A stretch of DNA of 64,000 nucleotides from contig NC_088936.1 of NCBI RefSeq assembly GCF_033473495.1, positions 434,001-498,000 of the forward strand, read 5' to 3'. This stretch comes from Cercospora beticola. Lineage: Eukaryota; Ascomycota; Dothideomycetes; Mycosphaerellales; Mycosphaerellaceae. Positions 7,434-44,207 of the stretch are shown in pieces; positions within the stretch are counted from its first letter, which is position 1; each line of letters opens with the position of its first letter. The position numbers were made by a program, and so were the translations under genes. The notes below the pieces were generated by a model. The model ran no database searches. It saw only the letters and a program-made list of their open reading frames with translations, and had not been told where the DNA came from.

Positions 7434-9920
7434 ATGGCCGGGTCCAAGTGGAAAGTCGCTGCTGCGGCGATCTTAGCATTTGCTCTTGCGGTTGAAGGGT
7501 GCAATAAGTGCGAGAAAGAACATGGTATGGGAGCAATCCTTCTCGACGCGTATCGGTGCTTCAGCGGTGCGAAAATTTGCTGACTTTCGTACAGCCGACC
7601 ACAATGTCATCACAGTCGTTGTTCACGCATCCTGCGGTATTCCATCGAAGACTACAACCTTGTACCCACCACCAACGCCTCCCTCTGTCACCGATGTTCC
7701 TCCTTGTGGAAGGGAATGTGTCACGCCGGGACAGTATGGTGGCTGTGCAGAGGGCGATGTGAAGTGTATTTGCAAGAACAAAAGCTACCTTGAGGGACTG
7801 AGTACTTGTGTCGCGAGGAAGTGTACTGGACGAGGCGATTGCCAGAGTAAGCGGGATTCGCCCATCAAAGCTTCGGGTGAAGCACGAACGACTGACGATG
7901 ATCCCAGGTGTTATCGACTTTGCGACCAAAGTCTGCGGCAGTGTGGGCGTTTTCGATCTACCGAAGCCTTCGTGTGCTCCTCCTCCACCTTCTTACACGG
8001 ACGTGCCTTCTTGCGCGCAGAGGTGTGTTGTTCAGGGTTCGTATGGAGGTTGCGCTGAAGGCGATGTGGCTTGCATCTGTCGCAACACGCCTTACCTGCA
8101 AGACTTGACGGGCTGCGTGTCAAGGGAATGTACTGGAACGAGCTGCCAAGGTGAGTCGTCCTGATCGAAGTACCGTTGATGCGGCGAGCTGATATACGGT
8201 CCTAGGTGTCGTCGATTTCGCAAAGAATGTCTGTGGCAGTGTTGGCGTTACCAGCCTGCCTATACCTTCTTGTGCCGCAACCACCACCGCGCGTCCACCT
8301 ACGGTCACGGATGTGCCCAACTGCGCCCAACGATGCGTCACCCAAGGACAGTACGGGGGCTGCGCAGAAGGTGATGTCGGCTGTATCTGTCGAAACACGG
8401 CTTACCTCAATGGCCTCACGGACTGCGTTAGCCAGAACTGCAACTCGACTGGATGCTCTGATGTCGTCAACTTCGCGAGCAGCGTTTGCGGAAGCGTTGG
8501 TGTTACCAGCTTGCCAATGCCGTCCTGCGCTGCAAGCACATCTTCAGCTCGCCCGCCTACGGTTACGGATGTTCCATCTTGTGCCCAGATCTGCGTTACA
8601 GCCGGCTCGTATGGCGGATGTGCCGAAGGCGATGTCAACTGCATTTGCAGGAACACTGCATACCTCGATGGACTGACGAACTGTGTCAGCCAAAACTGCA
8701 ATGCGACTGGCTGTGCTGAGGTGGCTTCGTTCGCTGGAAACCTCTGCAGCAGTGTTGGTGTGACGAGCTTGCCTATGCCATCTTCTTGTGGTATTCCGCC
8801 TGTCACCTATACGACGACTCAGCAGACGGTCGTGGTCACTACAGCTTCGGGCCAGACTGTGACAACGACGCAACAGACTGTTATCGTCACCACGGCTCCG
8901 GGACAGACGGTGACCCTGACTGCTCCTACAACCGTTGTTCCTCCGGCTGAGACTGTCACGGCAAGCACAGCAGTCACTGTCACTGTCATCTCGACAGCTC
9001 CAGCGAGTACGGTCAGCGTGACTGAGACCTACAGCGCTACCACGACCCAGCAGGGACCGACTGAGACGGCGACTACGATCTACGTCTCCACTGTTCAGAC
9101 CACGGTTGAGCGCACTGTCACTCTTCCGGCAAGCTCTTACACTACTACCATTGTTGAAAGTGGAACTACTTACACGCAAGTCACCACCGCACCAGGCAGC
9201 ACGATCGTTGAGACTACCGTAGCTTACGTCCCGACGACTGTCTACTCCATTGGCACTAATACTCAGACTGCGACTTTGCAGCGGACTGTGACCTCTACTG
9301 CTCCAGGCGGAACGGTCACGGCAACGCAACAGGTGACTTCCGTACGAGTCAGCACAGCTCCAGCCTCAACAATCGTTACCACACTCCGCTCAACAATCGT
9401 GTCCACGGCTCCAGCTCAAACAGTCGTCTCAACCTTCGTTTCGACCTACCGCTCAACGATAATCTCCACCGCACCAGCCCAAACAATCGTCTCCACCGCA
9501 CCAGGCCAAACCATCGTAACAACCCGCGTCTCAACAGCCCCCGCCCAAACCATCGTCTCAACCTTCGTCAGCACCTACCGCAGCACCATAATCTCCACCG
9601 CCTCCCCCATAACCACAACCTACAGCGTAACCCGCACAATCCCCGCTTCAACAGTCACAGTCACCAGCACCACAACTCCTCCAGCTGTGACTGTAACAGT
9701 CAGCACGAGTATCGTGCAAACTACGACGCAGAGGACGAGTGTGGTTCAGACTACGACTTATAGGACTACGGTTTCGCCGCCGGGTGCTCCGCCGGGGTAT
9801 GTTGGGCCTACGACTACGACTACTACTACTACGACGACGAGGAGGACGACTACGTCGACTGCGCAGAATCCACCGGGGTATACGCCGCCTGCGCCGCCAC
9901 CGCCGGGGTATACTCCGTGA
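7434..9920 (+). CDS. secreted four-CFEM-module protein with Thr/Ser-rich adhesin-like tail
   Basis: Four exons (7434-7524, 7595-7846, 7908-8150, 8206-9920) with introns of 70, 61 and 55 nt, all phase 1, give 766 residues. Residues 1-22 form a signal peptide (cleavage likely near AVEG-C). Four CFEM modules follow, near residues 60-110, 145-195, 230-285 and 305-360. Each has the eight-cysteine spacing, YGGCAEGDVxCIC with the Asp that binds haem iron in Csa2-type CFEM proteins, a closing VCGSVGV, and two additional cysteines. The remaining ~390 residues are Thr/Ser/Val-rich repeats (TVVVTTASGQTV, TIVSTFVSTYRSTIIST), likely heavily O-glycosylated, ending in Pro/Gly-rich GYTPP motifs. CFEM proteins act at the fungal surface in haem uptake, adhesion or virulence. 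No GPI signal is visible; a GTGAGT at the stop codon could be a donor to an unseen terminal exon. Confidence 0.85.
9360..9660 (+). repeat. internal coding repeats in CFEM tail
   Basis: Near-identical stretches encoding TAPAQTIVSTFVSTYRSTI occur twice, with partial copies around them. They are followed at 9811-9860 by an ACT/ACG trinucleotide run encoding poly-Thr. Codon choice in 9360-9660 shifts to C-ending codons compared with the flanks, suggesting recent expansion. Confidence 0.7.
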
Positions 9921-35016: not shown

Positions 35017-36216
35017 GATGTTTGTGGGTGTGGTGCCTGAAAATCGTTCCAAGAGAAGCGCGGCTAACTAGTGGACCTTATCGATTAAGCTTCTAGCGCA
35101 GATCGGCAGCCGCGCCGCGCCTGCCCTGGGATTGGATCGCGCTAGTGGGTAGTGGAGCTTCTATTTGCGAAACTCAAAGAACGACACGAGCACATGGCAC
35201 ATGTGACGAGTGTAAAGACCGCACAATATATGACTGTGGTGGTCACAGGAGCTGGTTCGCATTCACAGCAGATCTCATGACACGGAATGAATGTTCCAGA
35301 GTGCTGCCGTGGTCATGCTTTCATGCCAACGATGGAACTTGAGCCAATCCCGCCAGCGCATCGCAAACTTGCGGCCAGCAAGCGGAACCCCCTTCGCCAG
35401 CGCCCAGCCCGACGGCAGTGGCCATGGAGGGCGCAGAGGAGTTGATACCAGATGCACAAGAGCATGAGACGAATGGGTAAGTTGATATGAAGACTTCACA
35501 ATGAATGCAGCCGACAAAGAGCGGCATAGAGCAATGCCGAGTCTGGATATGTCGGTGTCCAGCTAGCTTTGTCGGGAGGAGGGCGATGGCACAAGGCCGC
35601 GACAAGATTGCTGGCTCGCTGGCCGCGCTCTGACACAGTTGTTTCCGACGACCGGCTGCTGCCCCGCGGATTCTGTCAAGTTGCTCCAAGTCGCTCTGCC
35701 TGCCCGTCCAAAGTCGTCAAAGTGTGCTCCGTGCTGCGTGCTGCGCCGGCTTTCCCTTATGTTTTCCAGCACTCTCGACACGCCCCTTCTCGACTCTTTT
35801 TCCAACCCATCCTGCACTTCTGCGTGTATGCAACTGGCTGCCATACGGTTTTTCATCAATTCAACCACCGATCGCCATCGAACTGCGCCCATCTCGACCT
35901 GCATCCGGACCGCGGCAACGAGACGCAACGCATCAGCTATACCACCGCCTCCCATTACCAGTCCGCCCGCCGTGATCCTGCAAAAGGTGTTGTCGTCGTC
36001 GCTGGTCCAAACTGCGACGTTCGCTAGCCCCACGCTTATTGGCCGCTTCGACTTATGGAGATGAGGCCCTGAACGAGCACCCTCGAGCACCCTTTGAGCC
36101 GCGCCAGATCCAGACGCGCGCACTGCGCATGTGCACCCTGCACATCTGCCTAGTGTGCTAATCGTGTTTCTATACCATCTTCTTGGCGTGTATTGTCGAT
36201 TTGGCCATTCTGCGCC
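35017..36216. other. divergent promoter region, 1.2 kb
   Basis: Lies between RBA50 (minus) and HPC2 (plus). Overlapping open frames in all phases near 35560-36060 show no family resemblance. No RNA gene is recognised. Confidence 0.4.
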
Positions 36217-38313
36217 ATGAACTCGGAACACATGGCCGATGACGACGCTGCAAGCGAGACGTCGTCTCTGTCGTCAGTGCAGTCCCCGCAAACCAGCTCG
36301 CTCGACGAAATTCGCGTCACAACCCGCGCTCCTGCTGCTGCCGCCTCCGCATTTGCTGAAGGTGTTGTTGCATCTTCCACTTCGGCAACTCCCGCACCTG
36401 CGCATGCTATACCAACACCCACGCCCGCCGACACAACTGCTAAGCCCAAGAGAGCACGCAAGCCTCGGGAACCCAAAGTCGAAGGCAAAGATGAGAAACC
36501 AAAGGAGAAGAAGCCTCGCAAGCCGCGAGAACCCAAGGTCAAGGCCGAAGATGGCTCTGCGCCTGCACCTCGCAAGCGCCAGAAGAAAGAGCCTGCTGCC
36601 ATTGCCCCTGATGCATCTGCCTCTGGACCTCGTCAGTCCACACTCACCGAAATGGTCACGCAGTACCAACAGCCTGCTGCCTCCACAAGTGCACCTCCGC
36701 CGCAACCACAGCACATTCTGGCGTCGCAACCTCTGCAACGACCGAATCAGCCCGACATCTTGATACGCGACAGTCTTCCACCTGCATCAAAACCGCCGAC
36801 ACCGCGCCCGTACTCGAGTGGTCAGAACTTTGATCCGATCAGAGGTTCCATCCTCGGTGCAGCACCGCCGCAACCGCCGACGAAGCAGTCAAGTGGTGAA
36901 CAATCTGCACCTCCATCAGCCGACACCTTTGCACGCCCCTCCGGACCTCCGCCTGCGCCGACCAGGCACACGAATGGTGAACCATCAGCACACCTGTCAC
37001 CCAATTACAATCGTGCCTCAGCTTCACCGTCCATCAACAGCCTCATTGACCCTCCCAGCAAACCCTCACTCCCATTGTCGCACACCTCACAAACACCGAC
37101 GTACGCACAACAGCCGCCTAGCTTTGTTAGTTCTGCACACCATTCACCTACGCCACCAGTGGCTGCACCCGCGGCTCTACCTCAAAAGGCATCTTTACCA
37201 CTAACCTCTCCGGCACCTCCACCTCAACAACAACAACCTCAAGCGCAACCGATGCCGCAAACGGACGGCGCGATGGACATTGATGGACCTGTGTGCGAAG
37301 CGCCAATGAAGACGCAACCTTCGAAATCGTCGTCATCGGCGCCGACGCCTCAAGTCCAGGCCAAGGAGAAGAAGGCCGCTTCACCCAAGGCTGCTGGCAC
37401 TGGACTTTTGGCTAGCAACAATCTCTTTGGCGGACCTGGAGCTAAACAAGAGTCAGAGATCCGCGGACCAAACATCGAGATTCGGATCTCGCTGAATCGA
37501 GATGGTGGTAACACGGTCAACATCGCACAGGAGATCTTCAAGAAGTACGGTCAAGACGCAATCAATCCTCGAGCTGCAGCACATCGAGCAAAGCTATTGC
37601 AAGTCGCAGCTGCACAGAACAAGCTCGAGGGAGGCTCTGCAGACGACATGTCTGTTGATTTGATGTCAGATATGGATGGAGACAGCAACATTGAGATGGG
37701 CGGCATGGATGACGAGGGCAAGTCTGCCACTGGAGCTGATGACGCCAAGCCACGCAAGAGGCGGAGGAAGGTCGAGGAGTACGACAAAGATGACGACTTC
37801 ATCGATGATACGGAGCTCGCTTGGCAGGAGAAGGCCGCTGTGGCGAAGGATGGTTTCTTCGTGTACTCCGGCAAGCTTGTACCTGAGGGCACAACTGCGA
37901 ATGTTGAGTCTGCAGCACCATCTGGCCGAGGCCGTGGCGGTGGACGAGGACGTGGTCGCGGTAGAGGCGGTACCACTGCTGCTTCGAGTGCTACTACAAC
38001 TGCTACCGAGAAAGTGCGGGATCCCAACGCACCGACGCGAGGTCGTGGCAGCAGAGGTGGCAAGATTCCTGGCGCGCCTAGGAAGCCAAGGATCACGAAG
38101 GCTGAGAAGGAGAAGCTCGAAGCGGAGAAGGCACAGAGAGAGCGCATGATGAATGCGCCAGCTGGGACTTCGGCCACGCCCATGTCTACGACCAACTCGG
38201 CGACTCCGGCTTCCCTGGTTCAGCAGCAGCCGCCTCCGCAGCAGCCTGCTTTGGCGTCACAACATCACGTTTACTCCAATGGTACGACGGGCCAGCAAGG
38301 TGTACAGGTATAG
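36217..38313 (+). CDS. HPC2: HIR complex subunit Hpc2 (ubinuclein family)
   Basis: A single exon of 698 residues from ATG 36217; a near-cognate TTG lies eight codons upstream. The diagnostic element is the HUN/Hpc2-related domain near residues 525-565 (KVEEYDKDDDFIDDTELAWQ, then KDGFFVYSGKLV), which in Hpc2 and UBN1 contacts the Hir/HIRA-H3.3-Asf1 machinery. A short conserved block (GPNIEIRISLNRDGGNTVN) precedes it. The N-terminal half is Lys/Pro-rich (KPREPK repeats, AT-hook-like) and Pro/Gln-rich. The C-terminal part holds an RGRGGGRGRGRGRGG box and a Lys/Glu helix. The role is nucleosome assembly outside S phase and histone-gene repression. Confidence 0.88.
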   Translation: MNSEHMADDDAASETSSLSSVQSPQTSSLDEIRVTTRAPAAAASAFAEGVVASSTSATPAPAHAIPTPTPADTTAKPKRARKPREPKVEGKDEKPKEKKPRKPREPKVKAEDGSAPAPRKRQKKEPAAIAPDASASGPRQSTLTEMVTQYQQPAASTSAPPPQPQHILASQPLQRPNQPDILIRDSLPPASKPPTPRPYSSGQNFDPIRGSILGAAPPQPPTKQSSGEQSAPPSADTFARPSGPPPAPTRHTNGEPSAHLSPNYNRASASPSINSLIDPPSKPSLPLSHTSQTPTYAQQPPSFVSSAHHSPTPPVAAPAALPQKASLPLTSPAPPPQQQQPQAQPMPQTDGAMDIDGPVCEAPMKTQPSKSSSSAPTPQVQAKEKKAASPKAAGTGLLASNNLFGGPGAKQESEIRGPNIEIRISLNRDGGNTVNIAQEIFKKYGQDAINPRAAAHRAKLLQVAAAQNKLEGGSADDMSVDLMSDMDGDSNIEMGGMDDEGKSATGADDAKPRKRRRKVEEYDKDDDFIDDTELAWQEKAAVAKDGFFVYSGKLVPEGTTANVESAAPSGRGRGGGRGRGRGRGGTTAASSATTTATEKVRDPNAPTRGRGSRGGKIPGAPRKPRITKAEKEKLEAEKAQRERMMNAPAGTSATPMSTTNSATPASLVQQQPPPQQPALASQHHVYSNGTTGQQGVQV

Positions 38314-39058
38314 GACTACCAGTCGCAGTAAAGTCAGAGCACGGATATCGATCTGCGCTACGACAGCCCGATCATCTTGTCGAAGAACTGCGCTGGCTCA
38401 GGCTCAGGCATAGGCACCCAACACCGCTGTGCTACTTCGACCTCTTTTGCTTTTTCTTTCTGGCGTCATGATACCACCACCAATTACTGGCCCTTTCACC
38501 CGCTTCTGAGGTGGTTATGCGAGTTTGGCTGTCTTTATGCGGACGAACAAGGGCAGGCGGACAGGCGCTTTCACGACACGTTTCATTTTCTCTGTTATTG
38601 CCTCAGCGAGAAAGCGAGAAGAGAATGGCGATGGACAGCTTCTCTGGTCTGCAGTTTCATAGACCCCCTACGGAATTTAGGGATTGCTCATGGTGTATGT
38701 ATACTAAGTCTACTGCTACTACTGTTTGTTGCTACTACTGATGGGCTTACTACTGCTGCTGTTGCCGCTGCTGCTATCGCAGCTATGATTGTGGCTTGGG
38801 ACATTACTGTAGCGTTGATAGCATAGCTTATTGCACCAAGAATTCAATGTGTGATCAAACACGACACGATTTCTTTTCTTTGAATTTTACGAATCTCACC
38901 ATAATTTTGCTGACTCGATGGGTCTTTAGAGTCTGCTGTCGTTCGAAACATGGACGCAAACCAGTGGGCAACATCATGCTCTGGATCTGGCTGCCTTCAA
39001 CATATCTCGCAAGCAAAGATCACAAACTTGATATATGAATCAGTCTTACCAACTCGTC
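38314..39058. other. HPC2 downstream region
   Basis: No supported gene. A degenerate CTG/CTA trinucleotide-rich tract occupies about 38710-38777. Confidence 0.4.
38710..38777. repeat. CTG/CTA-rich low-complexity tract
   Basis: Interrupted TACTGC and GCTGCT repeats, probably in the HPC2 3' UTR. Confidence 0.6.
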
Positions 39059-39217
39059 ACCGATCATCCTTGGCCGAGTGGTATTGCTTGATAAGTCGTC
39101 TCCGGAGTGAAGGCGCATAGTCCAAAGGTGACGAAGCTTAGCTCTGCTTGACGATCTTGGATCGTTGCTTGAGCTACAATCATCTAACTACGAGGTCAAG
39201 AGCGAGCGATTGTTTTT
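39059..39217 (+). ncRNA. array unit 1
   Basis: The most diverged copy. The 5' strand is ACCGATCATCC and the closing strand is weaker here. The D-arm-like stem is GGC/GCT with one extra loop base; hairpin 2 is CGTCT/AGGCG. The variable part has ACGATC/GATCGT (39151-39165) nested inside AGCTC/GAGCT (39140-39175). It ends in TTTTT with a second T6 run just after. Confidence 0.65.
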
Positions 39218-39417
39218 GCTTTTTTGCCTCTCTTTCGGTACTTTTACAGATAATACTGAGTGTAACATTGTAGAAGAGATGGTGGCTTCATGGTTGATTA
39301 CGAAATTGCACGATACTGTAGCTAGGGGCTTCTCCGTTGCCGGACTCAGGATTATCGTTTTCTTATCCCTGTAGCAACTCTTGAGAGTACATGTATTGCG
39401 TCAAAAAGGAGCGTTGT

Positions 39418-39569
39418 AATGATCGTTCCTTGGTCTAGCGGTATATCTACAAGTCGTCTTCTCGGTAAGATGCTTAGGGTGGACGAGTGAGATTCGGGGG
39501 TCCAACGACACGATGTCGTTGCCTCGTCGAAGCATCCCTTGCATCCGCGCGAGCAAGGCCGATTGTTTT
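39418..39569 (+). ncRNA. array unit 2
   Basis: 5' strand AATGATCGTTCC; D-arm-like stem GGT/ATC, a compensated variant of GGC/GCC; hairpin 2 CGTCT/AGATG. The variable hairpin is the perfect 7-bp CAACGAC/GTCGTTG at 39503-39521. Ends CCGATTGTTTT. The upstream box starts 37 nt before, at 39381. Confidence 0.75.
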
Positions 39570-39689
39570 GCACGCCTTTTGCTACTTTGGAGGCTTCTCC
39601 GGTCATTCGATCAAGTGTGATCTTTCGACACTTTCGTGTTTCATGCAACGCATGTGAGAGTTCTTGAATGCTCGAAAGCAGACGTCTGA

Positions 39690-39845
39690 AACTATTGTTC
39701 TTGGTCTAGTGGTATGCTTATAAGTCGTCTTCTCAATAAGATGCTTGGGCTGGAAAGCGTTCGAGGGACCGTCTAGTCAGACCAGCGTTGCGTCTGCTGG
39801 CCTTCTTCTTCTACTCATAATGCGAGACGAAGGGCGATTGTCTTT
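39690..39845 (+). ncRNA. array unit 3
   Basis: 5' strand AACTATTGTTC pairs with GGGCGATTG mainly through G-U pairs. D-arm-like stem GGT/GCT; hairpin 2 CGTCT/AGATG. Variable hairpin CCAGC/GCTGG at 39782-39800. The terminal run is interrupted (TTGTCTTT), so termination may be weaker. Confidence 0.7.
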
Positions 39846-40020
39846 ACATTTTGGTCTCTGCTCTGGTATTGCTTTTGTTATATTGGAGAATGTGGTCCCA
39901 TGCATCGAAAAGGAGCGGTCTAGAAGGGTGAGTTCGGCAAGAGATGTGATTGTGATTTGGCTTGATGTGTATCATGGATATCCTTTTGCTAGGAACGCAT
40001 TCGTTCTCCCTGTCCCAGAT

Positions 40021-40035
40021 GTGAGGGTACTTGAA
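40021..40035 (+). promoter_or_regulatory. upstream box of RNA array (unit 4 copy)
   Basis: GTGAGGGTACTTGAA starts 37 nt before unit 4. Near-identical copies start 37 nt before units 2, 5 and 6 (39381, 40370, 40673) and 36-37 nt before unit 3 (39654). Spacer sequence between box and unit is otherwise variable. The position matches the -30 region where TFIIIB sits on Pol III genes; the role is inferred. Confidence 0.55.
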
Positions 40036-40057
40036 TGCGTTGAGAAAGGAGGCTTTC

Positions 40058-40218
40058 AACGATCGCCCTTGGTCGAGTGGTATGCTTGTAAGTCGTCCGA
40101 TATTTGGGATGCTTGTGCTGAACACGACTGGATACAGCTGCTCAACGAGACTGAAACTTTCATTATGAACAAGCCTGTTGTTTCAGTTATTATGTCTAAG
40201 ACCAAGGTCGATTGTTTT
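40058..40218 (+). ncRNA. array unit 4
   Basis: 5' strand AACGATCGCCC against GGTCGATTGTT. D-arm-like stem GGT/GCT. Hairpin 2 is CGTCC/GGATG, where a C-G pair replaces the T-A of other units. Variable hairpin CTGAAAC/GTTTCAG, 40151-40186. Upstream box exactly 37 nt before, at 40021. Confidence 0.8.
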
Positions 40219-40406
40219 GCTCTTCTGTCATCTTTTTAGAGTGGTCAAAGAAAGGCCATATTTCAGCGAAGAGGAGAGCTTCGTAAATAATTCGAGGCAG
40301 TCTGCGAGGCGTACTCTAGGCATGGCCAACAATCCTTTTTGATACTTTTTTGTCGTTCCACCCATGCTGGTGAGAGTACTTGAAGGCGTTGAGATTGAGC
40401 AACTAT

Positions 40407-40566
40407 AACGATCGTCCTTGGCCTAGTGGTATGCCTTCAAGTCGTCTTCCTAATAGACGCTTGTGCTGAAGGGATTTCGAGCGGACTTTACGACGACCTT
40501 ATATGATAAGCAGGTCGTTGTGCGCAAATTCCAGCTCCTGTCCGCGAAGCCTGGAGCGATTGTTTT
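40407..40566 (+). ncRNA. array unit 5
   Basis: 5' strand AACGATCGTCC against GGAGCGATTGTT. D-arm-like stem GGC/GCC with perfect A-box match TGGCCTAGTGG. Hairpin 2 is the fully paired CGTCT/AGACG with a bulged T. Variable hairpin ACGACCT/AGGTCGT, 40493-40518. Upstream box at 40370. Confidence 0.8.
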
Positions 40567-40709
40567 GCCCCTTTTCACTACCTTTGTCCAACGAAACCGC
40601 GTATAGCCCATGAAAGTGCGAAGGATAGAATGCACTCCTTCCCTTTTTCGTGACGTTCTCTCGCCCGCGGTCGTGAGGGTACTTGAACAATAATGCCGGA
40701 ATGGATAGC

Positions 40710-40857
40710 AACGATCACCCTTGGCCTAGCGGTATGCCTATAAGTCGTCTTGCGGAGATGCTTGTGCTGGATGATTCGATACCGCAGCCTGACGACTTGA
40801 CCTAGTCGGCCTGCGGTGGTGTTGAATTCAAATCGCAAGCTAAGGACAGACTGTTTT
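40710..40857 (+). ncRNA. array unit 6
   Basis: 5' strand AACGATCACCC; the closing strand GACAGACTGTT is the least complementary of the set. D-arm-like stem GGC/GCC; hairpin 2 CGTCT/AGATG. The longest variable hairpin: CCGCAG/CTGCGG enclosing CGACT/AGTCG, 40782-40816. Upstream box at 40673. Confidence 0.75.
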
Positions 40858-41022
40858 GCCTCCTTATCGTCCTCCTTAAGAGGCCTTTACCTACTCTTGT
40901 CCTATTTCTTTTTAGTGCTTGATCTTTGGCTGACTCCAATACCACGATCTTGATATGTCTCGATCTCCTCTCCGCCCGTGTAAGCCTTTGAGCTTTATCA
41001 GCCTCCTGGAGTCAGAGTCGCT

Positions 41023-41180
41023 AACGATAGTCCTTGGTCAAGCGGTGAGCTTGTAAGTCGTCTTTGGCATCCAGACGCTTGTGCTAAGGCTAGGAGACAG
41101 AGTTGCTGTGACTAAGATTGGCAGTCTTCAAAGGTGCGAATGTTGTCTGTGCAATTAGTGAGATTGAGGGCGATTGTTTT
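41023..41180 (+). ncRNA. array unit 7
   Basis: 5' strand AACGATAGTCC against GGGCGATTGTT. D-arm-like stem GGT/GCT in TGGTCAAGCGG; hairpin 2 CGTCT/AGACG. The variable region closes by ACTA(AG)ATTG / CAATTAGT, 41111-41159. Ends TTTT followed by CCTCCTTTT. Confidence 0.75.
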
Positions 41181-41351
41181 GCCCTCCTTTTGCGCTTTTT
41201 GCAGCAGCGATTACTATTGCCTCACCATTTATCCAATGCCTTCTCTTGCTTGGTCTCTCCAAAACCTTGGATTAGGATCACAGTGACCTTTTACTATCAC
41301 GTGCCCGGAATCGTAGTCACCTTCATATAATTTCGCAACTTCTTCATCATC

Positions 41352-41505
41352 AACGATCGTCCTTGGCCGAGCGGTACGCCCATAAGTCGTCTTCTTAAGA
41401 TGCTAATGCGAAAGGTGGCAAAGTCTGGTAGTTGCTCAACGATGTGCTGTCGTTTAGTCGCCGCTATTTCGTGACCTATGCGCCAGGTTCAAGGGCAATT
41501 GTTTT
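41352..41505 (+). ncRNA. array unit 8
   Basis: 5' strand AACGATCGTCC against GGGCAATTGTT. D-arm-like stem GGC/GCC; hairpin 2 CGTCT/AGATG. Variable hairpin AACGA/TCGTT at 41438-41454. It has the best B-box-like sequence of the array, GGTTCAAGGGC, just before the closing strand. A TATAAT lies about 27 nt upstream. Confidence 0.75.
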
Positions 41506-41668
41506 GCCTCCGCCTTCGTCCTTTTGCAGCGCCGTCAATTTTGCCCTGCCATTCGGCTTAGTCTCACTTAGCTGCTCCCGACACTCAAAGCACGACTTCG
41601 CGCCCTTCGATTCGTGGCCGCCACCGACTGATTATGACCTTCATTAGCGTTCGAGATTTATTGTCCGC

Positions 41669-41818
41669 AACGATCGTCCTTGGTCAAGTGGTATGCTCGT
41701 AAGTCGTTCTCTGACGATAATGCCGGCAATCGAGGTGGCGTTCAAATGGCAATCAACGATATGGCATCGTTACAGCCTTCTTTGCTGCACTTTCTGCTAG
41801 GTCAAGAGCGATTGTTTT
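41669..41818 (+). ncRNA. array unit 9
   Basis: 5' strand AACGATCGTCC against GAGCGATTGTT. D-arm-like stem GGT/GCT; hairpin 2 is partly degenerate (CGTT/AATG). Variable hairpin AACGAT/ATCGTT at 41755-41771. Ends TTTTG then TTTC. Confidence 0.75.
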
Positions 41819-41998
41819 GTTTCTGTTGCCTCCATTCTGCTCTTCTGGATGGCGATGAAACGCACGATTGATAGGGCCCCTCTCTCTCTTCTCTGACAAC
41901 CTTTTGCAGTCCAGACCTGTTCTTACAACCAGTACTCGTTCCCGCTCGGGCGAGGCACGCCTGCAACATTGATATCCTTGTGTCCAGCTTTGGCCTGC

Positions 41999-42149
41999 AA
42001 CGTCGTCCTTGGTCTAGTGGTAGATCCCTAAGTCGTCTCTGCGGGGCCGCTGGCTTGGTGAACACACGAACGGTACTTTCACGGGCGACATGTGGCGGCC
42101 GTGATATACGATTCGATCATCTCACGCTCAGGCGAGGTCGATTGTTTTT
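41999..42149 (+). ncRNA. array unit 10
   Basis: 5' strand AACG-TCGTCC, one base shorter, against GGTCGATTGTT. D-arm-like stem GGT/ATC as in unit 2; hairpin 2 shortened (AAG..C/GGCTT). Variable hairpin CACGG/CCGTG at 42080-42103. Ends TTTTT. Only about 200 bp separate it from the uS2m stop. Confidence 0.75.
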
Positions 42150-42355: not shown

Positions 42356-44207
42356 CTACTTGTCCTCCTTCTTCGCACTGTCCACGGCGTTGTCGACTTC
42401 CTTCTGACTCTCCGCATCCACATCCTGCACTTCTGGATTGCCCTGTTCATTTGCAACCTTCACCTCAGGCGCTTGCTCTCCAAGCTCTTTCTCTACCTCT
42501 CCAACCTGCTCGATGGTATCATTCGGCGTTTCGGTAGCAGCTTCCGCTTGCGAGTAGACAGGGTCGTCAGTGCCGGTCCCAGGCTCAGCTTTGATGCCGA
42601 ATTGTGCTGCGTCTTCGGCGGAAGTATCTGCTTCGGCGGCAGGAGCGTAGGTCTCATTTACGAGGGACTGGTCAACAGCGGAGAGATCGGGCGCTTCGGC
42701 GTCGTTGAACTGGGCGTACATGTCGAGTTCTTCATCTGAGATGGACTCGGCGAGATCTTCGGGTTGCTGGGTTTCGAGGGTGTCCATCCCGCTCATTTGT
42801 TCTGCTGATGGTATACCTGAGGCGGAGGTTGGGATTTTGCTTCCGGATGCATCGGCTGCAGAGGCCGCAGCACTCTCGTTCTCGAAGAGGATCTTCTCGG
42901 CTTGGTCCAACAGACTCTGATCGCGCTCGTGTTGTCTCACATCGGTGCCTTCGAAGTCGTCTGGGAACAGAGGCTCGTCTTGTGAGTCGAGAGCCTGCTC
43001 AGCTGCAGCGAAATGTCCCGCGTCTGCTCTTGACTGAATCTTCATTCTCTGTGCGTTTCCTACAGCCCTGACACCGCCTCTCTGGTTCCGTCTCTCGCCT
43101 TCTGGCGGTTGTAGGCCATGAACAGCAGGGTATACGACGAAGCCACCGGGACGCTTTGATGTCGGTCGAGCGTCCCTTAGACGTCGCTCCTGTCCTTCTT
43201 GGCCCGCTCGTCCCAACACACCACAGATGAACTGCACGGCTCGTAACGAATCGTCGTTGGCTGGAATGGGGTATGTGACCCATGTCGGGTTTGCGTCGGT
43301 ATCGATAATGCCCATGGTGGGAATGTTATTAAGGCCACATTCGTGCAGCAAAACGTAGTTCTCCAGTGGATTCAGACACACGACCAGATCAGGTTTGATG
43401 GCGGCTTTCGAAAACAATTGGTCCTGGAAGCCATACTGTTCCGTCACATCTTCATCCAACTCGTTCTTCACTCTCTTCTCGCATCGCCCTAGGATCTGTT
43501 GTCCGTTGGTGATGGTTCCGGGAATCCATTTTGTGAACAAGTGGCAGCCCTTTGACAGCTCGGCAGCCTTTACAACGGCACGCGCTTGTCCTTGCCGTGT
43601 TCCCACGAACAGGATCAGACCACCTCGTTCTGCCACACCTGATACAACCTTGCACGCCCTTCGCAAATGTGATGCAGTCGCGTCGGGAGAGATGATGTGA
43701 ATGGGGTCGTGCTCGCCTCGAATTCCGAAAATGTAGCGTGCATTGCTGGGGTTCCATAGACTCGTCGCATGTCCGATATGTGTTTGCGCAGCGATCAGCG
43801 CCTCGAGTGTGATGTCTCGCGGTGACGGCGGTTTCGTGAGGAGTTCGTGGGGCTTGTAGTGCGGTGCAATGGTCGACCCGACGCCAGATGTGTACTTTTT
43901 GTTGTGCTGGAAAAAGGCGTAGTCGAGGGCGACAGGGTGATTCGGGTCGTTCAACGGGACAGAGCGGTCGACGACGGTATTGGGGCCGATGGTTTCTTTA
44001 GCCGTCGCGGCGAATTGTGGGATCCCTACTCGTTCGCCAGCTTCTGCGTTGGGCGATACTGTCGATTCGAGCGAGGAGAGGCGATTCGACGATGTGTGTA
44101 TGCGCCGGGGGAGGGCGATGCGGCCTGCGCTCCATCAGCATCCATACCGCATAATGATACAAATTGTTCAACTCACCATGCCGCAGTCGCAGCGCTCGTA
44201 CAATCAT
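42356..44207 (-). CDS. MRP4: mitochondrial ribosomal protein uS2m (Mrp4)
   Basis: Exon 1 (44207-44177) and exon 2 (44124-42356), joined by a 52-nt phase-1 intron, give 599 residues. The short first exon plus the start of exon 2 supply an Arg-rich presequence (MIVRALRLRHGRIALPRRIH). The S2 fold follows: AAQTHIGHATSLWNP, GGLILFVGTRQGQARAVVKA, HLFTKWIPGTITNG, KPDLVVCLNPLENYVLLHEC and IIDTDANPTWVTYPIPANDD. It binds the small-subunit rRNA of the mitoribosome. After about residue 320 comes an unusually long, acidic, low-complexity C-terminal extension (about 270 residues) with no predicted fold. The gene is head to head with the next gene. Confidence 0.92.

Follow-up and report, generated by a model that had tools for sequence, protein, structure and literature searches.

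The window analyzed here, a 64-kb stretch of the Cercospora beticola genome, contains an array of ten repeated units at positions 39058 to 42148, all on the forward strand. The units are 149 to 162 nt long, including the T-run, and have a core-to-core spacing of 271 to 368 bp, in agreement with the initial annotation, which had also reported a lack of protein genes in this region. Among the open reading frames (ORFs) of at least 150 aa listed for the array, none is a convincing protein gene; one mechanical ORF of 164 aa overlaps units 3 and 4. The units, and the features of unit 4 discussed below, are as follows.

39058..39216, +, unit 1, from the predicted RNA +1 through T4
39418..39569, +, unit 2
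39689..39844, +, unit 3 (degenerate terminator TCTTT; left out of the 111-unit counts)
40057..40218, +, unit 4
40406..40566, +, unit 5
40709..40857, +, unit 6
41022..41180, +, unit 7
41351..41505, +, unit 8
41668..41818, +, unit 9
41998..42148, +, unit 10
40028..40035, +, unit 4, TATA-like stretch at -29 to -22 (from the family-wide A/T fraction)
40058..40074, +, unit 4, 5' strand of the terminal stem (pairing and covariation)
40070..40080, +, unit 4, A-box TGGTCGAGTGG at +14, overlapping the terminal stem
40090..40114, +, unit 4, hairpin 2, AAG-U-CG ... YG-CU with a bulged U (covariation)
40125..40190, +, unit 4, hypervariable domain, approximate limits (inter-copy identity near the shuffled level)
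40200..40216, +, unit 4, 3' strand of the terminal stem (pairing and covariation)
40215..40218, +, unit 4, T4 terminator

The block CTTGGYCNAGYGGT is exact in all ten units, and AAGTCGT is invariant across their alignment. The start sequence AACGATCGYCC, proposed previously for every unit, is exact (by eye) in only four of them (units 4, 5, 8, and 9). The 3' ends read GATTG-TTTT, and the final Ts of the pairing segment double as the T-run, in contrast to the earlier description of a 3' end followed by TTTT; units 3 (GATTGTCTTT), 6 (GACTGTTTT), and 8 (CAATTGTTTT) have deviant 3' ends.

Genome-wide copies and candidate Pol III signals

These ten units are a single cluster within a far larger family, with approximately 110 copies in the one C. 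beticola genome searched (36.07 Mb). We inspected 140 model matches with E values of up to 1 and retained 115 units, of which 111 have a usable 3' end; the median length to the T-run is 153 nt. The copies form 24 locus-and-strand groups on 8 of the 10 contigs, and units are present in 23 of the genome stretches examined, i.e., beyond the window. Most copies sit in regular same-strand arrays. Six retained units had E values of >0.005 (0.009, 0.009, 0.0095, 0.3, 0.59, and 0.77), five of which were kept for their position in or near the array register; L024:5398 is not clearly in register. The four units removed for a poor 3' end were window unit 3, L024:5398, L028:4005, and L030:5036. The 25 matches left out comprised short or partial matches and two weak matches in the window; the partial matches probably include some genuine units whose start lies outside the model coverage (L032:5979 [E = 1.4e-6], L019:3790, L019:7210, L024:4699, and L015:5328). 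A window match at 9144 to 9210 on the reverse strand (15.9 bits) was discarded; it lies inside long mechanical ORFs between tandem repeats and has no TTTT after it in the stretch read.

A two-part sequence pattern matched the genome 36 times (the model did not confirm one of them, at C2:2905963), and a second pattern gave 37 matches at 36 distinct places; read backwards, neither gave any match. Both patterns were derived from previously identified units, and their counts include the window's own units; 36 to 37 forward matches against none backwards exclude chance for the family. One strict pattern each yielded no match in the IMG/VR and GTDB genomes, which are viral and prokaryotic and therefore uninformative about other fungi.

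Judging from their sequences, the units look like RNA polymerase III (Pol III) genes, each unit apparently being a gene of its own. Across the 111 units, the A/T fraction is 0.78 at -29 to -22 compared with 0.47 at -52 to -35, which marks a TATA-like stretch at a fixed distance from the start. An exact A-box lies within the first 45 nt of 55 units (2.0 expected), at +14 or +22 in 47 of these 55; the other 56 carry it with one mismatch (46 units; 27.7 of 111 in shuffles) or two (10 units). An internal TTTT occurs in 11 of the 111 units compared with 43.6 expected, a count as low as this being reached in none of 1,000 shuffles, whereas internal AAAA is near expectation (23 versus 28.2). A second TTTT lies downstream of the terminator in 80 units. 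The B-box, the usual companion in A-box genes, is weak at most inside the units: GWTCRANNC is exact in 4 of 111 (2.7 expected) and present with at most one mismatch in 53 (37.8 expected), RGTTCRANNCC is present with at most one mismatch in 12 (3.7 expected), and the 100 nt downstream of the units contain two exact B-boxes, the same number as in one shuffle.

Terminal stem, hairpin 2, and the variable domain

The 5' and 3' ends of the array units pair with each other, as previously proposed, and the helix covaries across the family; however, it is not the approximately 11-bp helix first described but a longer stem of approximately 16 bp containing the CTTGG block. Its 5' positions 6 to 17 are paired in 64 to 97% of the 111 units. 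For positions 10 to 17, which were unused in fitting the register, the observed pairing was reached in 0 of 500 family-wide shuffles and 0 to 1 of 500 within-array shuffles; positions 18 to 20 are weakly supported. The unit-finding model contains no terminal-stem pairs. When inner-stem strands were swapped between units, the native combinations (-16.4 kcal/mol) were more stable than all swaps (-12.2 kcal/mol) and within-array swaps (-14.8 kcal/mol), with 0 of 2,000 in each case. The copies are related, so all these shuffle counts are inexact as probabilities; the stem-A test was run without the sequence-only anchors of the final hairpin-2 test, and of the five covariation measures computed on the model-fitted alignment, one was not above shuffles (255 of 500). 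Whole units fold with a mean z score of -3.06 (94 units).

The second hairpin of the initial annotation is borne out. Hairpin 2 has a near-invariant UAAGUCG core with a bulged U (base UAAG-U-CG/YG-CU), and this core and the RNA start are the most conserved parts of the units. With anchors set by sequence only, pairs 3 to 6 covary in the 100 anchored of 111 units (0 of 1,000 family-wide shuffles; 0 to 6 of 1,000 within arrays) and, outside the model training set, in 82 anchored of 90 units (0 of 1,000; 0 to 23 of 1,000 within arrays); pair 7 is weak. The hairpin tests covered 94 and 100 of the 111 units. The unit-finding model holds pairs 1 to 5, so paired hairpins are favoured in the sample; pair 6 lies outside the model.

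The same tests bear on the tRNA-mimicking plan previously read into the units. The supposed UU linker and the GG of the D-arm belong to the covarying terminal stem, and the GG finds a far better pairing partner in the 3' end than within a D-arm; of the 111 minimum free energy (MFE) folds, 100 contain the extended terminal helix and 6 a D-arm. As we read them, the changes cited as D-arm covariation are mostly G-C to G-U wobble changes, with one two-sided change (unit 2). We rejected the D-arm plan on the MFE folds and the terminal-stem covariation; the D-arm appearance is that of the Pol III A-box, an element that tRNA genes share.

Between hairpin 2 and the 3' stem strand lies a domain of approximately 60 nt in which inter-copy identity is near random, close to the shuffled level, and structure is weak (mean fold z score, -0.81; 94 units). 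Among all pairs of the 111 units, identity in the conserved 5' part peaks at 0.86, in a pair with 0.58 in the middle part, and middle-part identity does not exceed 0.71 in any pair.

Candidate functions and relationship to known RNAs

We consider it likely that the array is a cluster from a multigene family of structured Pol III noncoding RNAs (ncRNAs) of approximately 155 nt, each with a terminal stem of approximately 16 bp, a bulged-U hairpin, and a variable domain of approximately 60 nt. Pol III would be recruited by TBP/TFIIIB, bound to the TATA-like stretch near -29, together with TFIIIC on the internal A-box, and would start at or near CAACGATCG and stop at the T-run. The transcript would fold into the terminal stem and hairpin that covariation supports, and the domain that differs in every copy would complete the molecule. 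The conserved stem and hairpin could then serve as a common handle for one RNA-binding protein, with the 3' Us available for La, and the gene-specific domain could give each RNA a partner of its own. That the RNAs of the family are interchangeable adaptors or guides built on a single scaffold is a tentative proposal that we regard as rather doubtful, and a lineage-specific adaptor or guide system, with the scaffold recognized by one protein and the target picked by the variable domain, in the fungus or its plant host, is unlikely. The adaptor idea would fall if the variable domain is free of constraint, as it may be.

An alternative agrees on the identity of the family and differs at the function step: the variable domain would be mere spacer, and the RNAs would act as bulk decoys or scaffolds for one protein, with the dose set by copy number. 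This is plausible, if short of an even chance, given the near-random identity and weak structure of the domain; the approximately 110 different copies without visible homogenization and the avoidance of internal TTTT over the transcript tell against it without being decisive. The units could instead be precursors of milRNA-like small RNAs, i.e., Pol III transcripts with hairpins cut by Dicer to release a locus-specific small RNA from the variable domain. As outlined in PMC3547838, fungal milRNAs can depend on Pol III, and milR-1 of Neurospora has TATA-like elements and no predicted A- or B-box; the C. beticola genome contains four Piwi-domain (Argonaute) matches, and the variable domains differ between copies. 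These domains, however, fold only slightly better than shuffles, and conservation peaks at the RNA start and the hairpin-2 core, an unexpected need for a Dicer substrate, which makes this origin improbable. Transposable elements, either a tRNA-derived SINE or a MITE with stem-like terminal inverted repeats, would account in outline for the inverted ends, A-box, and dispersed copies but are very improbable: no recent copies were seen among the 111 units, the whole array used as a genome query matches only itself among the matches listed, the stem covaries inside the ends, the TATA-like stretch lies at a fixed distance outside them, and most copies are regularly arrayed. tRNA-like RNAs or degenerate tRNAs with a D-arm and an anticodon-like arm are scarcely credible, despite an A-box equal to the D-arm sequence and the paired ends, given the folds above and the absence of tRNA genes found by ARAGORN (bacterial-code setting) in the window, L010, and 22 further loci; the initial annotation was right that these are not tRNAs.

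The sequence data are best explained by a family of Pol III ncRNAs, so far undescribed, that share a scaffold and each carry a gene-specific domain. The earlier statement that no described family has this plan agrees with Rfam 15, which gave no match at the gathering cutoff in the window or in 8 plus 15 further loci; at E values of up to 10, three weak matches lie within the array or slightly past its edge, and none of them reproduces the arrangement of the units. We found no recognizable description of the family in the literature at the level of titles and abstract openings, a scope outside which bioRxiv and most subscription journals fall. No motif heading of PMC5640933 suggests the plan of the family, and PMC9757828, in the portion available, includes neither Cercospora nor Zymoseptoria. 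What would be new is the RNA family, transcription by Pol III being ordinary in itself: a plant-pathogenic fungus appears to carry approximately 110 genes of one structured RNA family without an Rfam 15 match. If true, this would give the fungi a large family of Pol III RNAs encoded by many genes and would pose a clear test, namely, whether selection acts on a hypervariable domain carried by a fixed scaffold.

Like tRNA genes, the units have an A-box and a T-run terminator, but they differ in having no recognizable cloverleaf, a B-box that is weak at most, a long terminal stem, and a length of approximately 155 nt. RUF6 of Plasmodium and snaR of hominids are likewise Pol III ncRNA families, the latter in a tandem array; compared by description only, they belong to other organisms, and both have fewer copies. 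Y RNAs and nematode stem-bulge RNAs share the Pol III type, a terminal stem formed by both ends, a bulge, a 3' U-run, and a variable interior. The Cercospora family differs in having far more genes and no Rfam match, and its genome has no TROVE/Ro60 (PF05731) match at an E value of 0.001, a search in which the control matched 1 of 14 named genomes and introns could hide a weak match; the major vault protein (PF01505) had no match in the genome, but none in the control genomes either. The Pol III milRNA loci of Neurospora, as outlined in PMC3547838, are also fungal, with a TATA-like element at milR-1, but they are single loci, one of them tRNA linked, whereas the Cercospora units all belong to one family and share a covarying scaffold. 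Class I RNAs of dictyostelid amoebae, in the outline given by PMC7919456, also have many intergenic, often clustered, and mostly dissimilar genes known from one lineage. As in the Cercospora family, their ends are joined by a stem that shows compensatory changes, a short motif is conserved, the rest of the molecule varies, and a promoter element occupies a fixed upstream position. Compared by description only, those RNAs are approximately 60 nt long, with a 6-bp stem, an adjoining, mostly unpaired 11-nt motif, and a DUSE element (PMC7919456), whereas the Cercospora family has approximately 155 nt, a stem of approximately 16 bp, its motif in a second hairpin, and a TATA-like stretch, A-box, and T-run.

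Genome-wide extent of the repeat family

The ten same-strand units claimed in the initial annotation were found at 39058-42148 of the window (C2:434001-498000), which belongs to a genome of 36.07 Mb in 10 contigs. The protein encoded ~2 kb past the array shares 88% identity with a Cercospora kikuchii protein and 84% with a C. berteroae protein, which places the genome in Cercospora at genus level. The window-derived pattern also matched contig C5, where 12 further units form two arrays on opposite strands, within the fetched stretch L010.

Features of the window and of L010
Window 36193-38313, + strand: HPC2/ubinuclein-domain gene, one flank of the ten-unit array
Window 40090-40096: example of the hairpin-2 core
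Window 42356-43954, - strand: ribosomal S2 gene, other flank of the ten-unit array
C5:111000-120900, both strands: L010, with seven-unit and five-unit arrays ~3.6 kb apart

Further genome patterns yielded 22, 20, 37, 36, and 27 matches (one place was entered twice in two of these five lists), versus 0, 1, 0, 0, and 1 for the same patterns reversed. The matches at C2:2905963 and C7:2469309 look like chance, and a model scan of the stretches around them (L033 and L034) gave no match. A 5'-half model built from 22 units (the training set) was run on 24 fetched 9,901-base stretches, L010, and the window, leading to 140 matches at E values of ≤1 in 311,525 bases; a second scan of 24 of these 26 sources gave 114 matches at E ≤0.005. 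Of the 140 matches, 115 were accepted as units, including 111 with a usable 3' end. The latter fall into 24 locus-and-strand groups (4 singletons; at most 11 units per group) from 23 of the 26 sources and are distributed over contigs C1 to C7 and C9. Neighbor spacing is <450 bp in 70 of 87 cases (median, 290). The real family size may exceed this count, because the genome was searchable by pattern only and some partial matches were omitted. From a reading of the coordinates, many arrays on C1 to C6 and C9 lie within ~700 kb of a contig end. The stretch L022 (C4:1132000-1141900), with one pattern match and a weak, partial model match (E 0.16), perhaps carries a lone or decayed copy.

Terminal stem and hairpin 2

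Pairing between the CTTGG block and the 3' end already emerged from RNAalifold on the ten window units. Covariation was examined across the 111 units with the register fixed on 5' positions 6 to 9 alone; the unit-finding model contains no pairs in this stem. Positions 10 to 17 are paired in 64 to 87% of the units, through many pair types, a level reached by 0/500 family-wide and 0 to 1/500 within-array shuffles, although such counts from related sequences are not exact probabilities. Positions 18 to 20 are weak, and position 2 is at shuffle level. The swap test (native, -16.4 kcal/mol; within-array swaps, -14.8; all swaps, -12.2; 0/2000) is consistent with the covariation result. The D-arm of the initial annotation fared poorly, appearing in just 6 of 111 minimum free energy (MFE) folds versus 100 for the extended terminal stem.

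Conservation among 114 aligned 5' halves is highest in the initial AACGATCG, in a TGG block, and in the UAAGUCG core plus its partner G. Hairpin 2 retains UAAG-U-CG facing YG-CU, and its pairs 3 to 6 covary when sequence-only anchors are used (pair 7 is weak), as they do in 82 anchored units of the 90 outside the training set. The unit-finding model contains pairs 1 to 5, so that unit choice is biased toward paired hairpins; pair 6 is unbiased. In a structure-leaning alignment, four of five covariation measures were consistent with hairpin covariation. An additional stem beneath the UAAGU core is supported as well (swap test, 0/2000; within arrays, 2/2000; arms chosen by energy). AAGUCGU of this core also occurs as a conserved small-subunit rRNA stretch near the decoding site, a likeness that may be chance.

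Candidate transcription signals and function

Pol III genes are known to combine an A-box, a TATA-like stretch, and a T-run with TTTT avoidance, and the promoter-like and terminator-like signals predicted here are of this pattern. Counted from the C of CAACG, the A/T fraction is 0.78 at -29 to -22 versus 0.47 at -52 to -35, unchanged in units outside the training set, and purines make up 82% at -33/-32. YTTTTGH starts within -85 to -40 in 28/111 units versus 5.2. Window units 2, 4, 5, and 6 share an upstream TGAGRGTAC block, located at, or directly ahead of, the place of the TATA-like stretch in other units. An exact A-box (TRGYNNARNNG) occurs in 55/111 units (shuffles, 2.0) and lies at +14 or +22 in 47 of these; the B-box signal is weak at most. 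By eye, the A-box of L010 lies at ~+14 in plus-strand units and ~+22 in most minus-strand units; therefore, subfamilies appear to differ in promoter layout. Internal TTTT occurs in 11/111 units versus 43.6 expected (0/1000 mononucleotide shuffles were that low), and internal AAAA is close to expectation (23 versus 28.2). A second TTTT follows downstream in 80/111 units.

Sequence establishes a family with a covarying stem and hairpin and with promoter-like and terminator-like signals. Its units would be transcribed by Pol III, La would bind their 3' Us, one common protein may recognize the scaffold, and the variable domain may have a gene-specific role. The main alternative is that this domain is idle and the RNAs work in bulk. 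The domain is ~60 nt long, with hairpin 2 on one side and the 3' strand on the other. Its mean identity is 0.558 within groups, 0.545 between groups, and 0.538 for shuffled partners; nearest neighbors average 0.656, a raw value without a matched control. In 94 units, its folding is slightly more stable than that of shuffles, with a mean z of -0.81.

Comparison with known RNAs

The Rfam comparison suggested in the initial annotation was made with Rfam 15 on the window and L010 to L032, and no family reached its cut-off; ARAGORN found no tRNA, and a Ro60 search gave no match. Four Piwi-domain matches (G000:C2:1935909, C2:188670, C6:1088989, and C7:1390561) make it probable that the fungus has RNA interference. 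We recognized no description of the present family in the literature searched. The nearest published plan found is that of dictyostelid Class I RNA, which, as described in PMC7919456, is unlike the units in size, stem, motif, and promoter.
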